In this document: positions 15,100-24,233 of the stretch, piece after piece
How positions within the stretch are numbered: the first letter of the stretch is position 1
How the letters are laid out: every line of letters begins with the position of its first letter
Source of the DNA: Nitrospirota bacterium
GTDB lineage: Bacteria > Nitrospirota > Thermodesulfovibrionia > Thermodesulfovibrionales > Dissulfurispiraceae
Direction of reading: 5' to 3'
DNA length: 64,000 nucleotides
Assembly: GCA_004321915.1 (NCBI GenBank)
Contig: SCQE01000044.1
Location: 1-64,000, forward strand
Program-made: the position numbers and the translations under genes
Notes under the pieces: generated by a model
What the model was told of the DNA's origin: nothing
The model's input: only the letters and a program-made list of their open reading frames with translations
The model's database searches: none

Positions 15100-17229
15100 A
15101 TGGGTTTTTTATCGGATATCAAGAGGGATTTTCGCGCTGTTTTCGAGCGCGATCCTGCTGCAAGAAGCGCTTTTGAAGTGGCGCTCACGTATCCCGGATT
15201 TCATGCTACTGCGGCGCATCGTATAGCCCATGCGCTGTGGAATTCCAGCGTGCCTGTGCTTCCTAGGCTTATCTCGAATATTTCGCGTACTCTTACAGGC
15301 ATAGACATTCATCCCGCTGCCAAGATAGGGCCCGGATTTTTCATCGATCATGGGATGGGAGTTGTTATAGGCGAGACGACCGAAATTGGCGAAGAATGCC
15401 TTTTGTATCAGGGCGTGACCCTTGGAGGGACGGGCAAAGACAAAGGCAAGAGGCACCCCACTCTAGGCAATCACGTTGTGGTGGGCGCAGGCGCTAAGAT
15501 ACTGGGCCCCATAACCATCGGCAATTATGTTAAGGTCGGGGCGAACTCGGTCGTGCTGAAGCCGGTGCCGGACCACGCCATTGTGGTCGGTGTGCCGGGG
15601 AAGGTCATAAAGAAAAAGATAGTCAGGATCGGTGAGGAAGGAGTGTTCGAAACCCTCGACCACGTAAGACTTCCTGACCCCGTTGACGAGAGGCTGCAGG
15701 AGATGGCCGATTATATCGAAAAACTTGAAGGCAGGATAGACAGGCTTGAAGGAAGAGGAGGCAGGATGAAGGTATTCAACACCATGAGCGGCAGGAAAGA
15801 GGATTTTGTGCCGTTTGTTAAAAATAGAGTCGGCATTTACGCCTGCGGAGTTACGGTTTACGACTACTGCCATATAGGCCATGCACGCAGCGCGATTGTC
15901 TTCGATGTGATGGTGCGGTATCTGCGCCATAAAAGTTTTGACGTGAAGTATGTCAGAAACTTTACAGACATCGACGACAAGATAATCAGGCGCGCGAATG
16001 AAGAAGGCAGTGCATGGGATGCGGTGGCCTCAAAATATATAGACGAATATTACCGTGACATGGATATGCTCGGCATAGCGAGGGCCGACATAGAGCCCAA
16101 GGCGACCGAACATATTCATGAGATGATAAATGTGATAAAGGCGCTGGTCGAGAAAGGCGCGGCATACGCCGCTGCGGAAGGCGAGAACAGCAGCGTTTAT
16201 TTTGCCGTCGAGAAATTCGGCGAGTACGGCAAGCTTTCGAAGAAAGAGCAGAAAGACCTGCTGGCAGGCGCCCGCGTGGATGTTGACGGCAGGAAGAAAA
16301 ATCCGATGGACTTTGCCCTATGGAAGGCCTCAAAAGAGGGCGAGCCGTGGTGGGAAAGCCCGTGGGGCAAGGGCAGGCCGGGGTGGCATATAGAATGCAC
16401 AGCTATGGCGATAAAACATCTTGGGGAATCCATAGACATTCACGGCGGCGGCGCAGACTTGATCTTTCCTCACCACGAAAACGAGATCGCCCAGTCCGAG
16501 GCGTTCACAGGCAAGCCCTTCGCCAAATACTGGATGCACAACGGTTTCATAACCATCGACAAGGAAAAGATGTCGAAATCGCTCGGCAACTTTTTTACGA
16601 TAAGGGACATATTGGACAGGTATGACGCTGAGGTCGTCAGGCTGTTCGTTCTCTCAAGCCATTACAGGAACCCGATAGAGTTTTCTCACGAGCAGTTGAG
16701 GGATGCCGAATCCTCGCTCGACCGCGTTTACAGCACTATTGCTAGGACGGAGGATTTTCTCGTTTCCGATGTTTCATCGAAGAAAGCGGTGCAGACTGCG
16801 GAGTTCGAAGATTTTCTGGTAAAATTTAACGGCCTGTTCGAAGAAGCGATGGACGATGATTTCAACACAGCTCTCGCAATCGGCCATATGTTCGAATTTG
16901 TGAGAGAGATCAATAAATTCTTGGATGCAAAACCTCACGGAGACGCTGCGAAGGCGCTTGCAGCAAAGGCCAAGGAAGTGATGGCAACGGCAGGCGGTGT
17001 GCTGAACCTTTTCGGAAGGACGCCGCTTCAGTGGAATGTGGACCTGCTTAGAAGCAAGAGAATAGAGCTTTCCGAGCAGCAGATAGTCCAAAAAATCGCT
17101 GCAAGACAGGATGCGAGACAGAATAAGGATTGGGCCATGGCCGATGCTGTAAGAAAGGAACTCGAGGAGAAGGGGATCCTTCTTGAAGACAAAAAGGAAG
17201 GAACCGACTGGAAGGTCAAAATTGCCTGA
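15100..17229 (+). CDS. Serine acetyltransferase-cysteinyl-tRNA synthetase fusion (CysE-CysS)
   Basis: One uninterrupted 709-residue frame encodes both proteins. Residues 1-222 are serine O-acetyltransferase: an N-terminal helical part, then a left-handed beta-helix with hexapeptide repeats including [18 protein letters not shown] near residue 82 and [12 protein letters not shown] near 109. Residues 223-709 are a full cysteinyl-tRNA synthetase with a CHIGH signature near 255 and the [10 protein letters not shown] motif near 488. There is no stop between them. At the junction a GAGGAGG lies about 4 nt before the CysS ATG (15766), so a separate CysS could also be made by internal initiation. The fusion joins cysteine supply to cysteine charging. 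Adjacent separate cysE and cysS genes are common in Firmicutes, so this may be a fused operon. Confidence 0.93.
15755..15768 (+). promoter_or_regulatory. Internal Shine-Dalgarno and start codon for a free CysS
   Basis: GAGGAGG followed by a short spacer and the ATG at 15766 is in frame with the fusion and encodes the Gly-Gly-Arg-Met junction. It is well placed to start an independent CysS chain. Confidence 0.5.
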
Positions 17230-19321
17230 GTCTCTCTTCAATCCGAAAGCGATAGCCGTAATCGGAGCATCCAAAGACCCCAAAAAGGTCGGTTATGCAG
17301 TACTCAAAAATCTTATAAAATTCGGATACAAGGGCGCGCTTTTTCCGATCAACCCTACGGCCCAAGAGATCCTCGGTATTAAATCCTATCCTAAAGTTTC
17401 GGAAACAAACTCGCCTATAGACTTGGCCATCATTGCGGTGCCTGCAAAATTTGTCGCTGAGGCCCTGCTCGATTGCGCGAAGGCAGGCGTGGGCTCTGCG
17501 GTCATACTCAGCGCGGGGTTCAAGGAAACAGGCCATGAAGGGATAAAACTCGAAGAGGAGCTGAAAAGAATAGGCAGGGAAAACAGGATAAGGATACTAG
17601 GTCCTAACTGCCTTGGTGTTATAAGCACATCGAACAGCATGAACGCTTCCTTTGCGGGCGATATGCTGCCGGCCGGAAGAATAGCCTTCTTTTCCCAGTC
17701 AGGCGCGCTCGGCATAGCCATACTCGACTGGGCGCTCGGCAACAGGATGGGGTTTTCAAAATTCATCAGCCTAGGCAACAAGTGTGATCTGAACGAGATA
17801 GATTTTATCGAGTACTTTATGGACGACCCTGACACGGACGTAATACTCGGATACATCGAGGATGTGGTTGACGGCAAGCGGTTTATGGATGTGGCCCGTC
17901 GGGCGACGAGGGTCAAACCCGTGATCCTGATCAAATCCGGGGGTACCGAAGCAGGGGCGCGTGCAGCCTCTTCCCATACAGGCGCGCTTGCAGGTTCCGA
18001 AACCGCGTTCAACGCGGTATTCAAGCAGACCGGCATTCTGCGGGCACAGGGCATTCAGGACCTCTTCGATAACGCATTGGCCTTTGCTTCGGGAAAAGTC
18101 CCTGATGGCAACAGGCTGCTGATAATAACGAATGCGGGCGGCCCCGGCATACTCGCGGCAGACATGTCCGAAAGGCAGGGGCTCCAACTGCCGCAGATGA
18201 CAAAAGATAATATTAAAGCAATGGCCCAAGCGCTTCCTGCGAGCGCGTCGTTATACAATCCTGTGGATATTATCGGGGACGCGACCTCTGAGCGTTATGC
18301 GGTTGTGCTCGAGAGGGCCGTCTCCGACCCCGGTGTTGACGGCATTCTCGTAATACTCACGCCTCAGGCCATGACAGATGTGGAAAATGTTGCGGATATG
18401 GTAATCAACGCGTCAAGAAAAACCGACAAGCCGATCATATCCTCATTCATAGGAGAGATGCGTGTAAGGAGTTCGATAGAAAAACTCAAAACCGAATCGC
18501 TGCCCTGTTTTTCATACCCTGAGACAGCAGTGTCCGCTTTCAGACGCCTTTATGATTTCGGAATTATGAAGCGTTCGAAAGTCAAAGATGAATATGAGTC
18601 GCCTGTTTCAAGGAACAGAGAGGCTGCCGGCCGTTTGATAGAGGATGCAATAAAGGCAGGCAGGTTCGAGCTGGGCGAGGACTCGGCAATGGATATACTG
18701 TCGCTGTACGGTTTTTCTTTCCCGGACAGGGCGCTTGCGAGGAGCTCGAGCGAGGCTGCGGCAATCGCCGAAAGGATAGGCTATCCGGTCGTGATGAAGA
18801 TCTCGTCGCCTGAGATCCTGCACAAGACCGATGTCGGGGGGGTCAAAGTCGGTGTCGGCAGCGAAGCTGCAGCCGAAGACGCTTTTATAGAGATTACCAC
18901 TAATGCGCGCAGGTTTATGCCGGACGCTTTCATAAAAGGCGTGATGCTTTATGAAATGATAAAGGGCGGGAAAGAGGTCATTCTGGGGGTTACCTATGAC
19001 AGGACCTTCGGCCATATGATCATGTTCGGGCTTGGCGGCATATATGTCGAAGTGCTCAAGGACGTATCTTTCAGGATAGCCCCGCTTTCACGCAGCGATG
19101 CGACCGCTATGATAAACGAGATAAAGACGGTAGGGCTTTTGAAAGGCGCGCGCGGCGAAAAACCTGCCGATATGAACGCTATAGTCGACGGCATTCTCGG
19201 CATCTCGGCAATCGTAAACGATTTCCCGCAGATAAGGGAGATAGATATTAATCCGCTGCTGGTGATGCACAGCGGCGCGATTGCGCTGGATGCCCGTATT
19301 ATTTTCGAGCATACCAAGTGA
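17222..19321 (+). CDS. ADP-forming acyl-CoA synthetase (acetate-CoA ligase, fused alpha-beta)
   Basis: The 699-residue protein has the N-terminal CoA-binding Rossmann domain (from [14 protein letters not shown]), the succinyl-CoA-ligase-like domain with the phosphohistidine motif [10 protein letters not shown] near residue 248, and a C-terminal ATP-grasp domain (about 480-699) with [21 protein letters not shown]. It interconverts acyl-CoA, ADP and Pi with the free acid, CoA and ATP. I choose the TTG at 17222, which overlaps the CysS stop by 8 nt and has GGAAGG 6 nt upstream, over an upstream TTG at 17183. The preferred acyl group is not evident. The Pta-N/DRTGG gene follows after 35 nt. Confidence 0.92.
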
Positions 19322-19356
19322 AACATATATACTAAGATTTGCGAGGAGGGGATAAA

Positions 19357-20418
19357 ATGGTTCCGGTTTTCATACTGTCCAGCAGAAACTATACGGGTAA
19401 AACTTTCTTTGCCTTGGGGCTTGCCTTAAAGCTTATATCCATGGGCCACAAGGTCGGTTATATGAAGCCGTTGGGCCAGACGCCAATGAAGGTGGGCAAG
19501 GGGCTTTTTGACGAAGATTCGATTTTTATCAAGGAACAGCTTTCACTGCCCGAGGAGTTGCAAATGGTCTCCCCGTTTGTTTTGAGCTTTGAGGCGCAAA
19601 GCATGATTTACAACGGCAGCCTTAAAGGGGTCAAGGAAGATATAATGAACGCTTTCGGTTCTTTTAAGGACAAGGACTTTCTTTTAATCGGCGGGGCCGG
19701 GGATTTTTTCGACGGGGCCACGCTTGGGATAGACGCAATAGAACTGATACGTCGTATGCAGGCCAAGGCTTTATTTGTCGAAGCGTGGCGCGGAGATATT
19801 TCCGCAGACGCGCTGTTCGGCGCCCGGCAGCTCCTCGGCGACAGCTTTGCGGGCGGCGTGCTCAATAAGGTCCCGGCCAATGCATACGGCCATGCTGTAG
19901 AAACGGTCAAGCCTTTTCTTGAATCCAAAGGGGTCAATGTCTTGGGTGTTTTTAAGAAAGACAGCATACTCGAATCGTTTACCGTAAGACAGCTCAATGA
20001 ACTATTGAACGGAACGGTGCTCTGCTGCGAAGACCGTCTTGATGAGTCTGTCGAGCATTTTTCGGTAGGGGCCATGGATGTGGACAGCGCCCTGAACTAT
20101 TTCAGAAGGATACAGAACAAAGCGGTAATAACAGGCGCTCACCGAGCCGATATACAGCTTGCGGCCATGGAGACCTCCACAAGGTGCATAATACTTACCG
20201 GCGGGCTGCATACGAACGAGATTGTGTTAGGCAAGGCCCAATCCAAGGGCATACCTATAATTTCGGTTGCGGACGATACCTTCACCACAATAGATAAAAT
20301 AGAGGGTGTGATGGGCAAGACGAAAATAAGGGAAAAAGAAAAGATAAAACGGACAAAAGAGCTTATAGAAGAGCAATTCGATATGCAGAAATTTTTGTCC
20401 TGCGTAAAAAACGTGTAA
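19357..20418 (+). CDS. Pta N-terminal-like P-loop/DRTGG protein
   Basis: The 353-residue protein combines a BioD/CobQ-like P-loop domain (about 1-210, with TGKT near residue 14) and a DRTGG domain (about 225-330, with LTGGLHTNEI). This equals the N-terminal half of long phosphotransacetylases without their catalytic domain. Its place directly after an ADP-forming acyl-CoA synthetase suggests a regulatory role in acyl-CoA/acetate metabolism, which is an inference. The frame is open back to a TTG at 19339, but the ATG at 19357 has GGAGG 8 nt upstream and is preferred. It converges with the response regulator gene downstream. Confidence 0.85.
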   Translation: MVPVFILSSRNYTGKTFFALGLALKLISMGHKVGYMKPLGQTPMKVGKGLFDEDSIFIKEQLSLPEELQMVSPFVLSFEAQSMIYNGSLKGVKEDIMNAFGSFKDKDFLLIGGAGDFFDGATLGIDAIELIRRMQAKALFVEAWRGDISADALFGARQLLGDSFAGGVLNKVPANAYGHAVETVKPFLESKGVNVLGVFKKDSILESFTVRQLNELLNGTVLCCEDRLDESVEHFSVGAMDVDSALNYFRRIQNKAVITGAHRADIQLAAMETSTRCIILTGGLHTNEIVLGKAQSKGIPIISVADDTFTTIDKIEGVMGKTKIREKEKIKRTKELIEEQFDMQKFLSCVKNV

Positions 20419-20428
20419 GCCGGGAAAA

Positions 20429-20815
20429 TTATTCCTGCTGGGACTTGCCTGCCAGAAAGTCCTCGACCGCGCCTAGGAAATCCTTCATCTTGATAGGCTT
20501 GGAAATGTAACCGTCAAAGCCTTTTTCGAGAAACATTTCTTTGTCGCCTTTCATGGCATACGCTGTCAGGGCGATTATCTTCATGTTTTTTGTATTTTCC
20601 TGAGACCTTAATATCCTCCCCACCGTTATCCCGTCCATTCCCGGAAGCTGAATGTCGAGAAGGATAAGGTCCGGCTGCTCCCTGTTCGCTATCCCGATCG
20701 CCTCTTCTCCGTCAACGGTATGTATGCATTCATATCCCCCTGCGCTTAGGATGTCCATAAACAGTTCCATATTGACGGGGTTGTCTTCAACGATAAGTAT
20801 TCTGCCTTTACTCAT
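20429..20815 (-). CDS. Single-domain response regulator
   Basis: The 128-residue CheY-like protein has the acidic pocket VEDN, phosphoacceptor aspartate in LILLDIQLPGMDG, the conserved Thr/Ala switch (ALTAYA) and the lysine in SKPIK. It has no output domain and would act by docking, like DivK-type regulators. The ATG at 20815 overlaps the end of the large hybrid kinase gene by 8 nt; a GGAGGAGG lies about 14 nt upstream, and an in-frame TTG at 20842 is a weaker alternative. Overlap with the kinase gene points to a shared phosphorelay. Confidence 0.9.
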   Translation of the reverse strand: MSKGRILIVEDNPVNMELFMDILSAGGYECIHTVDGEEAIGIANREQPDLILLDIQLPGMDGITVGRILRSQENTKNMKIIALTAYAMKGDKEMFLEKGFDGYISKPIKMKDFLGAVEDFLAGKSQQE

Positions 20816-23800
20816 AGGATACGAGTTTGCCTCCTCCTTCAATTTTTGTTTTTCTCAGAAGCTGGTGGGACTTGAATATAAGATCTTCCGGCGAATTTGC
20901 GTCCTTTGGAAAATTTAAAAGGGAGATGCTTGACGTAATTTTTCCGTGCGGCATGATGTTCACGCCGTAGAACGGATAGGTCTCGATGTAGGACAGGAAC
21001 CTGCGCGCAACTATCTCGGCCGATTCTTTTGGAGTTTTAGCCAGTATTATGCCGAATTCGTCTATGCCGTAGCGCACGAGGGTGTCTGAATTCCTCAAAG
21101 ATTTCCTTAGGAATTCGGCGATCTTTTTTATGCAGATGTTCGCCCTGTGGATTCCGTGGCATTTGATGTATTCGGTGAAGTTGTCGAGGTCTATCATGAC
21201 CAGAGTAAAGACGTCTTTGTATCTGGCCGCTTTGCCCACCTCCTGCGCGAGGCGTATCTGGAAATACGAATGGTCGAACAGGCCGCTGACCTCATCGAGA
21301 AGCCCCGCCCTTGTAGGGTATGTGACTTCGAGGTCTTTTATATGCATCAACAGGTCGTCCTTTGTAAAGTGGCTTTTCTGGATGAAGCTTTCGATCTTGC
21401 CCGCAAGCCTGAGTTTGTCGTCAACGGTCAGGTCTTTTGCTGTGAGCACGAGGATCGGGATATCGATCGTGGCCTGATGGTTTTTGAGCGTCTGCGCCAC
21501 TTCGAAACCGTCTACTTCGGGCATCATAAGGTCGAGGATTATTATATCGGGTTTGAAGGCCACGGCCTTTTCGAGTCCCTGCCTGCCGGACGTGGCAGTA
21601 ATAATGCTGTAGTCCGCGGTTTCGAGAATAGAGACGAGCAGTTCAAGCGCTTGTTCGTTGTCGTCGATGCATAGTATTGTCGTGTGGGTGCCCCGTTTGC
21701 GCTTGCTCAGGTCTTTTATTCTGGAGAGAAGGGTTGTTTTATCCACGGGCTTTACAAGATAATCGGCTGCGCCCAGCGCGAAGCCCAAGTCCTTATTGTC
21801 TATGACCGACGATATTATGACCGGTATGTCCTTGAGTTCATGGTCGAGCTTGAGTTCCTGAATGACTTCCCATCCGTCTTTCTCGGGCAGCATCACGTCG
21901 AGGATTATTGCGAACGGTTTGAGTTCTCTTGCCCTGTTCATGACCTCCATGCCCGTATACGCATGCGCAACCCTGTACCCTTCTCTTACCAGACTGAGCG
22001 TTATAATCTCGGAGGTCGAACGGTCGTCTTCGGCCACAAGTATGAGCGGATATTCGCTCCGGCGCGTGACTGCGGATTCCATGCCTTCAAGATTGAGTTC
22101 GTCTTTTGCTGGAATGTGTTGGATCTCGCTGTGTACGCTTGAAATGTCGAAGGGCGGAATGATAATTGTAAATGTGCTTCCCTTGCCCTCTTCGCTTTCC
22201 ACAAAGATGGCGCCCCCGTGGAGTTCAACTAATTTTTTGGTCAGGGCCAGCCCCAATCCGGTGCCCTCGTATTTTCTCGAATGGCTGCTGTCAACCTGCT
22301 CGAATTCGGAAAAGACCCTTTCTTGATCCTCCTCGCGTATGCCTATGCCTGTGTCGGTCACCGAAATCTTCAGGCATTTTTCAGGGCCGAGGTATGAATG
22401 GACCTTTTCCATTATCGGCGAGGCGGAATTGGTGTCCAGCATTTCCGCAGACAGTGTTATCTCGCCGCCTTCGGGCGTGAATTTCACCCCGTTTGAAAGA
22501 ATGTTGTACAGGATCTGTTTGAATTTGATCTTGTCCGCCTTGATTATGGAAACGTCATCGGCGATTTTTATGGTAAGTTTCTGGCCCTTCTTGTCCGCAA
22601 GGGTTTTTACTACCGTCTGCACTTCGGAAATCGACTGGGCCACGGTAAAACCCTCGTAGCTGAGTTCCATTTTGCCGGACTCTATCTTTGCTATATCGAG
22701 CACGTTATTTATGAGCTGGAGGAGATGGCTGCCTGAATTGTAGATGTTGCTCACATAACGTTTTTGTTTTTCGTTCAGCGGACCGAAAACCTCGTCGATC
22801 AGCAATTCCGAAAATCCTAATATCGAGTTGAGCGGCGTCCTGAGCTCATGACTCATGGTTGCGATAAACTGGCTTTTGAGCTTGTTCGAGCGTTCCAGTT
22901 CCCTGTTTGCGCGTTCAAGCTCTCTTGTTCTTTCGAGCACCTTTTCTTCGAGCCTTTCGTTCAGGTCCTGAAGTTCGAGGCTCCTTTCGTGTATTGCAAG
23001 CTCCAAGCGTTTCTTTTCCGTTATATCTTTTGAGATGCCGACGGTGCCTATGACCTCTCCGGCCGCGTTTCTGATATACGAAAGCGTAAGGCTGGCGTCT
23101 ATAAGCGTGCCGTCTTTTGTTTTTAGCCGCGTTTCGTAATTCAAAACGCTGCCGCTCGCCTCGATGGTCCTCATTACTCTGCGCCTGTCTTCTGGTTTTT
23201 CCCAGAGGACCTCTACAAGCATGCCTATGATCTCTTCTTGGGCGTAGCCGAGCAGCTTAGACGCGCCCTTGTTGAACTCCACCACCCTGCCGGACTGGTC
23301 CGTAGTTATGATTATGTCTGCAGAGTTGTCCAGAACGTTTTTGAGATAATTTTGGGTTTCGGATATTCTTTCTATAAGGCTGAATTTTTCTATGGCATAG
23401 GCGGCCTGAATGCCGAGTAGGGTAAGAAAGTCTATTTCGCGCTGTGTCCACGACCTTGTCTTGAAGTCGTCGATGTAAAGTATTCCTATTATGTTTTCAC
23501 TTGCTATGAGAGGCACGCATATCAGGCTCTTTATGCCCTCGTTAAGAAGCACTTTGTTGTCCACGTAACTGTATTTTTCTATGTCCGGAATTACAGTCGG
23601 GATTTTCTTCTGTAGTATGTGGTCGGTCATTCCGCCGGGCCGTCTTGTCCATTGCGTGACCTTGGAAAGGTTAGGCGAAAAACCGCTGCTTGCTTTAAGG
23701 ATAAGTGTTTGTGTTTTTTCGTCGTGAAGCGCGATGCTGCCCGCAGGCGCAGAGAGCGCTTGGAGCGCTTCGGTCAGGAGATTGTCCAACACTTCTTCCA

Positions 23801-24233
23801 GCTTTTCGGAAGAGGTGAGCGTGACCCCGATTCTGTAAAGGTCGCGCGCATCGTTAAGAAGGTTTTTTATCTCTTCTTTTGCCTGCTGTCTTTTTTCGAG
23901 CAGTTCCAAGAAGAGGGCGGTGCTTTTGCCGCAGATGATGCCTGTATTGGACGATTTGAGCTCCGTTATCTCGGACATCATGAACGAGTTGCTCGACGAC
24001 ACTATAAGGATGTCCGGTTCTTTTGCCAAAAGCTCTTTGAAGTCGGAGAGGTGAGGGATATTGTGTTTTTTTATGATCGCCGCGGCTTCGGACGAAAGGT
24101 TTGTGTCGGTTATGCCTACAACCGTTATCTTTCTTTCGGCGGTAAGGACGGACAGAAGGTTATACCCTTCTTTTCCTCCGCCCATTACGGCAACGCTGGT
24201 TGTAGGCCCGTTTTTCAGTTTGAAATTATCCAT
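20808..24233 (-). CDS. Hybrid histidine kinase with Rossmann-like N-terminus, two REC and degenerate GGDEF
   Basis: The 1141-residue cytoplasmic protein is read as: Rossmann-like NAD(P)-binding domain (about 10-112) with glycine pattern GGGKEG; helical linker; GAF (about 130-290); PAS (about 300-420); coiled coil; HisKA with MSHELRTPLNS near 463; HATPase (about 565-690); REC1 (about 725-840, phosphoacceptor in ILDVMLPEKDG); REC2 (about 850-970, IILDLMMPEVDG); and a GGDEF-like domain (about 990-1140) whose signature is GIDEF. No membrane helix is seen. The altered signature suggests the GGDEF domain binds ligand or protein and does not make c-di-GMP. The dinucleotide-like domain is an unusual sensor. 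It overlaps the response regulator gene. Confidence 0.9.
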   Translation of the reverse strand: MDNFKLKNGPTTSVAVMGGGKEGYNLLSVLTAERKITVVGITDTNLSSEAAAIIKKHNIPHLSDFKELLAKEPDILIVSSSNSFMMSEITELKSSNTGIICGKSTALFLELLEKRQQAKEEIKNLLNDARDLYRIGVTLTSSEKLEEVLDNLLTEALQALSAPAGSIALHDEKTQTLILKASSGFSPNLSKVTQWTRRPGGMTDHILQKKIPTVIPDIEKYSYVDNKVLLNEGIKSLICVPLIASENIIGILYIDDFKTRSWTQREIDFLTLLGIQAAYAIEKFSLIERISETQNYLKNVLDNSADIIITTDQSGRVVEFNKGASKLLGYAQEEIIGMLVEVLWEKPEDRRRVMRTIEASGSVLNYETRLKTKDGTLIDASLTLSYIRNAAGEVIGTVGISKDITEKKRLELAIHERSLELQDLNERLEEKVLERTRELERANRELERSNKLKSQFIATMSHELRTPLNSILGFSELLIDEVFGPLNEKQKRYVSNIYNSGSHLLQLINNVLDIAKIESGKMELSYEGFTVAQSISEVQTVVKTLADKKGQKLTIKIADDVSIIKADKIKFKQILYNILSNGVKFTPEGGEITLSAEMLDTNSASPIMEKVHSYLGPEKCLKISVTDTGIGIREEDQERVFSEFEQVDSSHSRKYEGTGLGLALTKKLVELHGGAIFVESEEGKGSTFTIIIPPFDISSVHSEIQHIPAKDELNLEGMESAVTRRSEYPLILVAEDDRSTSEIITLSLVREGYRVAHAYTGMEVMNRARELKPFAIILDVMLPEKDGWEVIQELKLDHELKDIPVIISSVIDNKDLGFALGAADYLVKPVDKTTLLSRIKDLSKRKRGTHTTILCIDDNEQALELLVSILETADYSIITATSGRQGLEKAVAFKPDIIILDLMMPEVDGFEVAQTLKNHQATIDIPILVLTAKDLTVDDKLRLAGKIESFIQKSHFTKDDLLMHIKDLEVTYPTRAGLLDEVSGLFDHSYFQIRLAQEVGKAARYKDVFTLVMIDLDNFTEYIKCHGIHRANICIKKIAEFLRKSLRNSDTLVRYGIDEFGIILAKTPKESAEIVARRFLSYIETYPFYGVNIMPHGKITSSISLLNFPKDANSPEDLIFKSHQLLRKTKIEGGGKLVSYE

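Follow-up and report, generated by a model that had tools for sequence, protein, structure and literature searches.

What does the N-terminal domain of a hybrid histidine kinase read, when it has the look of a dinucleotide-binding fold rather than of a familiar sensor? The question is raised by a gene in the 64,000-nucleotide stretch of a Nitrospirota bacterium analysed here, referred to as the window (contig SCQE01000044.1, positions 1 to 64,000). The kinase frame runs on the minus strand from position 24233 to 20808, ATG to stop, and encodes 1141 residues; the coordinates given in the original prediction are thus correct, and each domain in its proposed order of Rossmann, GAF, PAS, kinase, two receivers and a GGDEF-like domain was confirmed by Pfam (Table 1). 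The protein carries the features of a hybrid histidine kinase, with His462 in the HisKA H-box, an HATPase and receivers holding the phospho-acceptors Asp779 and Asp901. Synthesis of c-di-GMP by its C-terminal domain was considered and rejected on the signature: active diguanylate cyclases carry GG(D/E)EF, and the window protein, like most of its orthologues, has RYGIDEF, so this GGDEF domain is probably not a working cyclase. On balance, we favour the reading that the protein is a soluble hybrid kinase whose Rossmann input acts as a cytoplasmic nucleotide sensor, most likely of NAD(H), and controls the attached output, and we consider this moderately probable.

Table 1 Features of the kinase locus, in window positions.
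Feature	Positions	Strand	Basis or remark
Single-domain response regulator, overlapping the kinase stop codon	20429..20842	-	Conserved beside the kinase in relatives
Hybrid sensor histidine kinase, 1141 aa	20808..24233	-	Rossmann-GAF-PAS-HisKA-HATPase-REC-REC-GGDEF (degenerate)
N-terminal Rossmann domain, residues 12-107	23913..24200	-	PF01408 above gathering score; AlphaFold model and fold searches
Glycine loop GGGKEG (GxGxxG), residues 18-23	24165..24182	-	Sequence; family conservation 100/93/99% at three positions
Asp43, acidic residue ending strand 2	24105..24107	-	Family alignment; acidic (Asp or Glu) in 99% of members
Long signalling helix linking Rossmann domain to GAF, residues 103-135	23829..23927	-	DSSP on model
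GAF domain, residues 145-281	23391..23801	-	Pfam
PAS domain, residues 297-404	23022..23345	-	Pfam
HisKA, residues 453-520, H-box SHELRTP with His462	22674..22877	-	Pfam and sequence
HATPase_c, residues 567-693	22155..22535	-	Pfam
Receiver domain 1, about residues 735-845, Asp779	21699..22031	-	Pfam and sequence
Receiver domain 2, residues 853-965, Asp901	21339..21677	-	Pfam and sequence
GGDEF domain, degenerate signature RYGIDEF, residues 979-1134	20832..21299	-	Pfam and sequence

The predicted fold is well supported. The original prediction held that the first 110 or so residues form a Rossmann-type domain with a GGGKEG loop, and both profile and model bear this out: PF01408 (GFO_IDH_MocA) scores 26.6 bits on the whole protein and 31.4 bits on the isolated domain (residues 13-107), against a cut-off of 24, and an AlphaFold model of the domain (four input sequences, mean pLDDT 85) alternates beta strands and alpha helices. 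Its five strands (residues 12-17, 36-42, a short third near 61-62, 75-78 and 98-101) are followed by a helix, assigned by DSSP to residues 103-135, that heads towards the GAF domain. Structure prediction and comparison, proposed with the original prediction as a check, returned a Rossmann fold with NAD-binding domains as its matches. In Foldseek and a second aligner these were NAD(P)-binding domains of Gfo/Idh/MocA enzymes, including NAD-bound GenD2, and of acylating acetaldehyde dehydrogenases, and the dehydrogenase domains of SirC and CysG also scored high. A canonical relative, L031, fits known structures better than the window domain does, matching the acylating acetaldehyde dehydrogenase 1nvm with a Z score of 12.1, tied with those of other matches, and an rmsd of 1.9 over 96 residues; it also matches NAD-bound Gfo/Idh enzymes. 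Methionyl-tRNA formyltransferase and PurN score against the L031 model as well. Formyltransferase folds of this kind do not bind NAD, and since they too score well, the fold alone leaves NAD binding undecided. At the level of sequence, a profile of the family searched against PDB sequences found acetaldehyde dehydrogenases, Rex (weakly) and Gfo/Idh proteins (E 1e-5 to 4e-3), with an acylating acetaldehyde dehydrogenase as the best match.

Each of these known systems resembles the window protein in part. With Gfo/Idh/MocA proteins it shares the Rossmann fold, the GxGxxG loop and the acidic residue ending strand 2; however, it lacks their C-terminal substrate-binding or catalytic domain and the EKP motif after strand 5, where it has CGKSTA followed by the helix and GAF. 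Members of the sensor family, unlike those enzymes, continue through a long helix to GAF, PAS or output domains. The N-terminal domain of acylating acetaldehyde dehydrogenases (DmpF/MhpF type) is the top match in structure (tied) and in PDB sequence, but these are enzymes with a catalytic second domain and without signalling domains. The redox repressor Rex, in which a Rossmann domain senses NADH/NAD+ and thereby governs an output, is a clear precedent, and the likeness is one of principle: Rex places a DNA-binding domain ahead of its Rossmann domain, whereas the output of the window protein is a kinase, only 11 residues precede its Rossmann domain and Pfam matched no DNA-binding domain in it. 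KidO of Caulobacter, an NADH-binding oxidoreductase homologue that passes metabolic state to the CtrA control pathway (PMC7083601), is likened by function only, being a separate protein rather than a fused input domain.

We asked how far the domain is a family of its own. Used alone as a query, the window domain was found in 35 of 60 genomes of its order. A profile, A1, built from 20 rows of which the window sequence is one, made a single clear match in the window's own genome (E 2.5e-36; the next at 0.097), which argues against chance resemblance; likeness to just any NAD enzyme was ruled out in the same way, A1 picking one gene in a genome expected to hold many such enzymes. Over wider samples, drawn by the search tool so that the counts are not estimates of prevalence, A1 matched 86 of the 200 genomes sampled from the class (E<=1e-6) and 101 of the 198 from the phylum (E<=1e-8), and, at E<=1e-12, 81 of 297 in the phylum of a Desulfococcaceae genome, 92 of 249 in that of a Gallionella genome and 60 of 199 in that of Desulfotruncus. 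One genome of the window's genus (G001) matched neither the domain nor the full-length protein. No dedicated model for the domain was found in Pfam, NCBIfam or PHROGs: NCBIfam returned only enzyme models on the Rossmann region, with scores far under their cut-offs, and PHROGs gave no match.

The family is tied to signalling by its fusions. In Nitrospirota and the phyla of the Desulfococcaceae, Gallionella and Desulfotruncus genomes we took many of the matched loci, which gave 171 unique members, and labelled their domains by exemplars whose limits Pfam had set. About 155 of the 171 are fused to signalling domains, with outputs that comprise HisKA and HisKA_3 kinases, hybrids, GGDEF, EAL and HD-GYP domains, sigma-54 activators, methyl-accepting chemotaxis (MCP) domains and LuxR-type fusions. 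The search for the same domain order, also suggested with the original prediction, found that it recurs in relatives, with 22 of the 171 proteins matching the window's order exactly. Other kinases are laid out as Rossmann-HisKA, Rossmann-HisKA_3, Rossmann-PAS-kinase or, with two tandem Rossmann domains ahead of PAS (L211, L213, L217 and L272), as Rossmann-Rossmann-PAS-PAS-kinase. Layouts concerned with c-di-GMP are Rossmann-GAF-GGDEF, with GGEEF intact in L154, Rossmann-GGDEF-EAL, Rossmann-GGDEF-HD-GYP and LuxR-Rossmann-GAF-GGDEF, and there are also Rossmann-PAS-sigma-54 and Rossmann-MCP proteins. The last, of about 290 residues (L233, L256-L265 and L269), are possibly soluble chemoreceptors. 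No catalytic enzyme domain was seen among the 171 members. The window protein, which both matches A1 and is fused to a signalling output, belongs with them: its N-terminal domain is one of a separate family of Rossmann domains associated with signalling.

No other domain was found in 16 members; about thirteen of these appear truly stand-alone, and some others are cut by the end of a contig or locus. Stand-alone versions (L162-L164, L220-L226 and L299) span about 135-185 residues. Two of them, L224 and L225, adjoin a gene resembling 2-oxoglutarate dehydrogenase E1, and L162 and L223 adjoin an ispG-like gene; no common theme was seen in the gene neighbourhoods of stand-alone members.

In a FastTree phylogeny of the domain, built on about 107 columns so that single branches are not to be trusted, explaining the output labels takes at least 23 changes, compared with a mean of 85 when labels are shuffled. 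The output has therefore been inherited yet repeatedly swapped, as is typical of input domains.

Whether that input is a nucleotide can be judged from the residues that the family keeps. Over 158 non-redundant members, the glycine loop columns are nearly invariant (G8 in 100%, G10 in 93%, and Gly, Ala or Cys at column 13 in 99%, Gly itself in 72%), as are the acid at column 33 that ends strand 2 (Asp or Glu in 99%) and Thr or Ser at column 70 (97%); an APGxxxA motif after strand 2 and an (N/E/D)xTG motif at strand 4 are strongly conserved too. In Rossmann enzymes the dinucleotide lies at the glycine loop, the end of strand 2 and the strand-4 loop, and an acidic residue ending strand 2, which touches the ribose of the adenosine, gives a preference for NAD over NADP. 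The near-invariant glycine loop and strand-2 acid thus support a predicted role as a nucleotide sensor, for which NAD(H) is the first candidate. A different nucleotide, such as CoA or acyl-CoA, NADP(H), SAM or an adenylate, is to us an unlikely ligand. The nearest sequence relatives of solved structure are CoA-acylating dehydrogenases and the loop after strand 5 is unlike that of Gfo/Idh enzymes, both of which fit such a ligand, but the 99% conservation of the strand-2 acid, the usual mark of NAD ribose contact, disfavours NADP.

An acyl-CoA ligand draws some further support from the neighbourhood of the window gene. An ADP-forming acyl-CoA synthetase gene and a DRTGG/AAA_26 phosphotransacetylase-like gene occupy window positions 17183-20418 on the plus strand, and in about eight relatives both adjoin the kinase and its response regulator and converge on them. 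This arrangement suggests a link of the kinase to acetyl-CoA and energy metabolism in the window lineage. However, these neighbours were found conserved only within the window's own family, while the domain spans several phyla. Also on the plus strand (15100-17229), one frame seems, by eye, to join serine acetyltransferase (CysE) and cysteinyl-tRNA synthetase (CysS), an apparent fusion within cysteine metabolism.

The window's own copy departs from the family pattern. It retains Gly18, Gly20, Gly23 and Asp43 and has lost the APG motif, the Ala that follows it, the strand-4 T-G and a conserved Trp. The T-G is replaced by S-S within VSSSN, a stretch that the original prediction took as a feature of NAD-binding folds; relatives carry N/E/D-x-T-G there, and VSSSN is instead a departure from the typical site. 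On a signature of 14 positions the window copy scores 5, tied for the lowest of the 171 members, most of which score 12-14. Identity to six relatives with intact sites is 32-46% in the Rossmann domain and 56-90% in the other domains (linker excluded), so the Rossmann domain evolves faster than the remainder of the protein. Three orthologues from another genus of the family (L331-L333, in genomes G024, G028 and G015) have gone further: neither the glycine loop nor the acid is left, yet their other domains are conserved, so the kinase can persist without the site. Together, the low signature score and these losses indicate that the ligand role in the lineage may be relaxed. The pocket of the window copy appears partly eroded, its response to ligand may be weakened or changed, and ligand binding by this particular protein is uncertain. 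Of the originally predicted sensing of NAD(H) or another nucleotide, then, the Rossmann fold, the NAD-binding relatives and the conserved family site stand, and the loss of many signature residues counts against it in the window copy. With those residues lost and the domain evolving faster, the case for sensing is stronger in the family at large than in the window copy.

The same erosion speaks for a rival reading, in which the domain binds no ligand and serves as a Rossmann scaffold for dimerisation or partner docking, its glycine loop kept for structural reasons. In the window copy and L331-L333 the site is largely or wholly gone with the kinase conserved, and the stand-alone versions could be partner proteins. 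Against this, the polar and glycine contact positions rank among the most conserved columns in the 158 members, which would be unusual for a mere scaffold, and we give this explanation only a minor share of the probability.

For the nucleotide sensor that we favour, a mechanism can be outlined. A nucleotide, most likely NAD+ or NADH, would be held between the glycine loop, the acidic strand-2 residue and the strand-4 loop; depending on its occupancy or redox state, the long helix that follows strand 5 would move, and the attached kinase would change its activity in response. From there, phosphate would be handed on to both receiver domains and to the single-domain response regulator encoded next to the kinase. 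In this scheme, we infer ligand binding, NAD(H) as the ligand, transmission through the helix and phosphotransfer to the neighbouring regulator.

In a literature search drawn mostly from outside the subscription journals, covering NADH sensors and the occurrence of Rossmann or Gfo/Idh domains in histidine kinases and diguanylate cyclases, we found no description of the fused domain. The word Rossmann is absent from a census of sensory inputs to c-di-GMP signalling published in 2022 (PMC8846402), and PMC554113 was dismissed as a precedent, as it only names the Pfam families separately. A Rossmann nucleotide sensor is of a known kind; the contexts of the domain are what is new. More widely, we tentatively propose, with confidence just short of even, that the domain is a widespread cytoplasmic NAD(H)-sensing module, present in several phyla and repeatedly fused to kinases, c-di-GMP enzymes, sigma-54 activators and chemotaxis domains as a common redox input.

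To our knowledge, direct input of NADH/NAD+ to phosphorelays, c-di-GMP and chemotaxis is represented by scattered cases only. Such a link would become testable with this compact domain, which spans about 100 residues, has a site of the dinucleotide type and is carried on many outputs in Nitrospirota, in sulfate reducers and elsewhere; some orthologues have naturally lost the site and provide a built-in comparison. If the proposal is true, many bacterial signalling outputs would share one common redox input.
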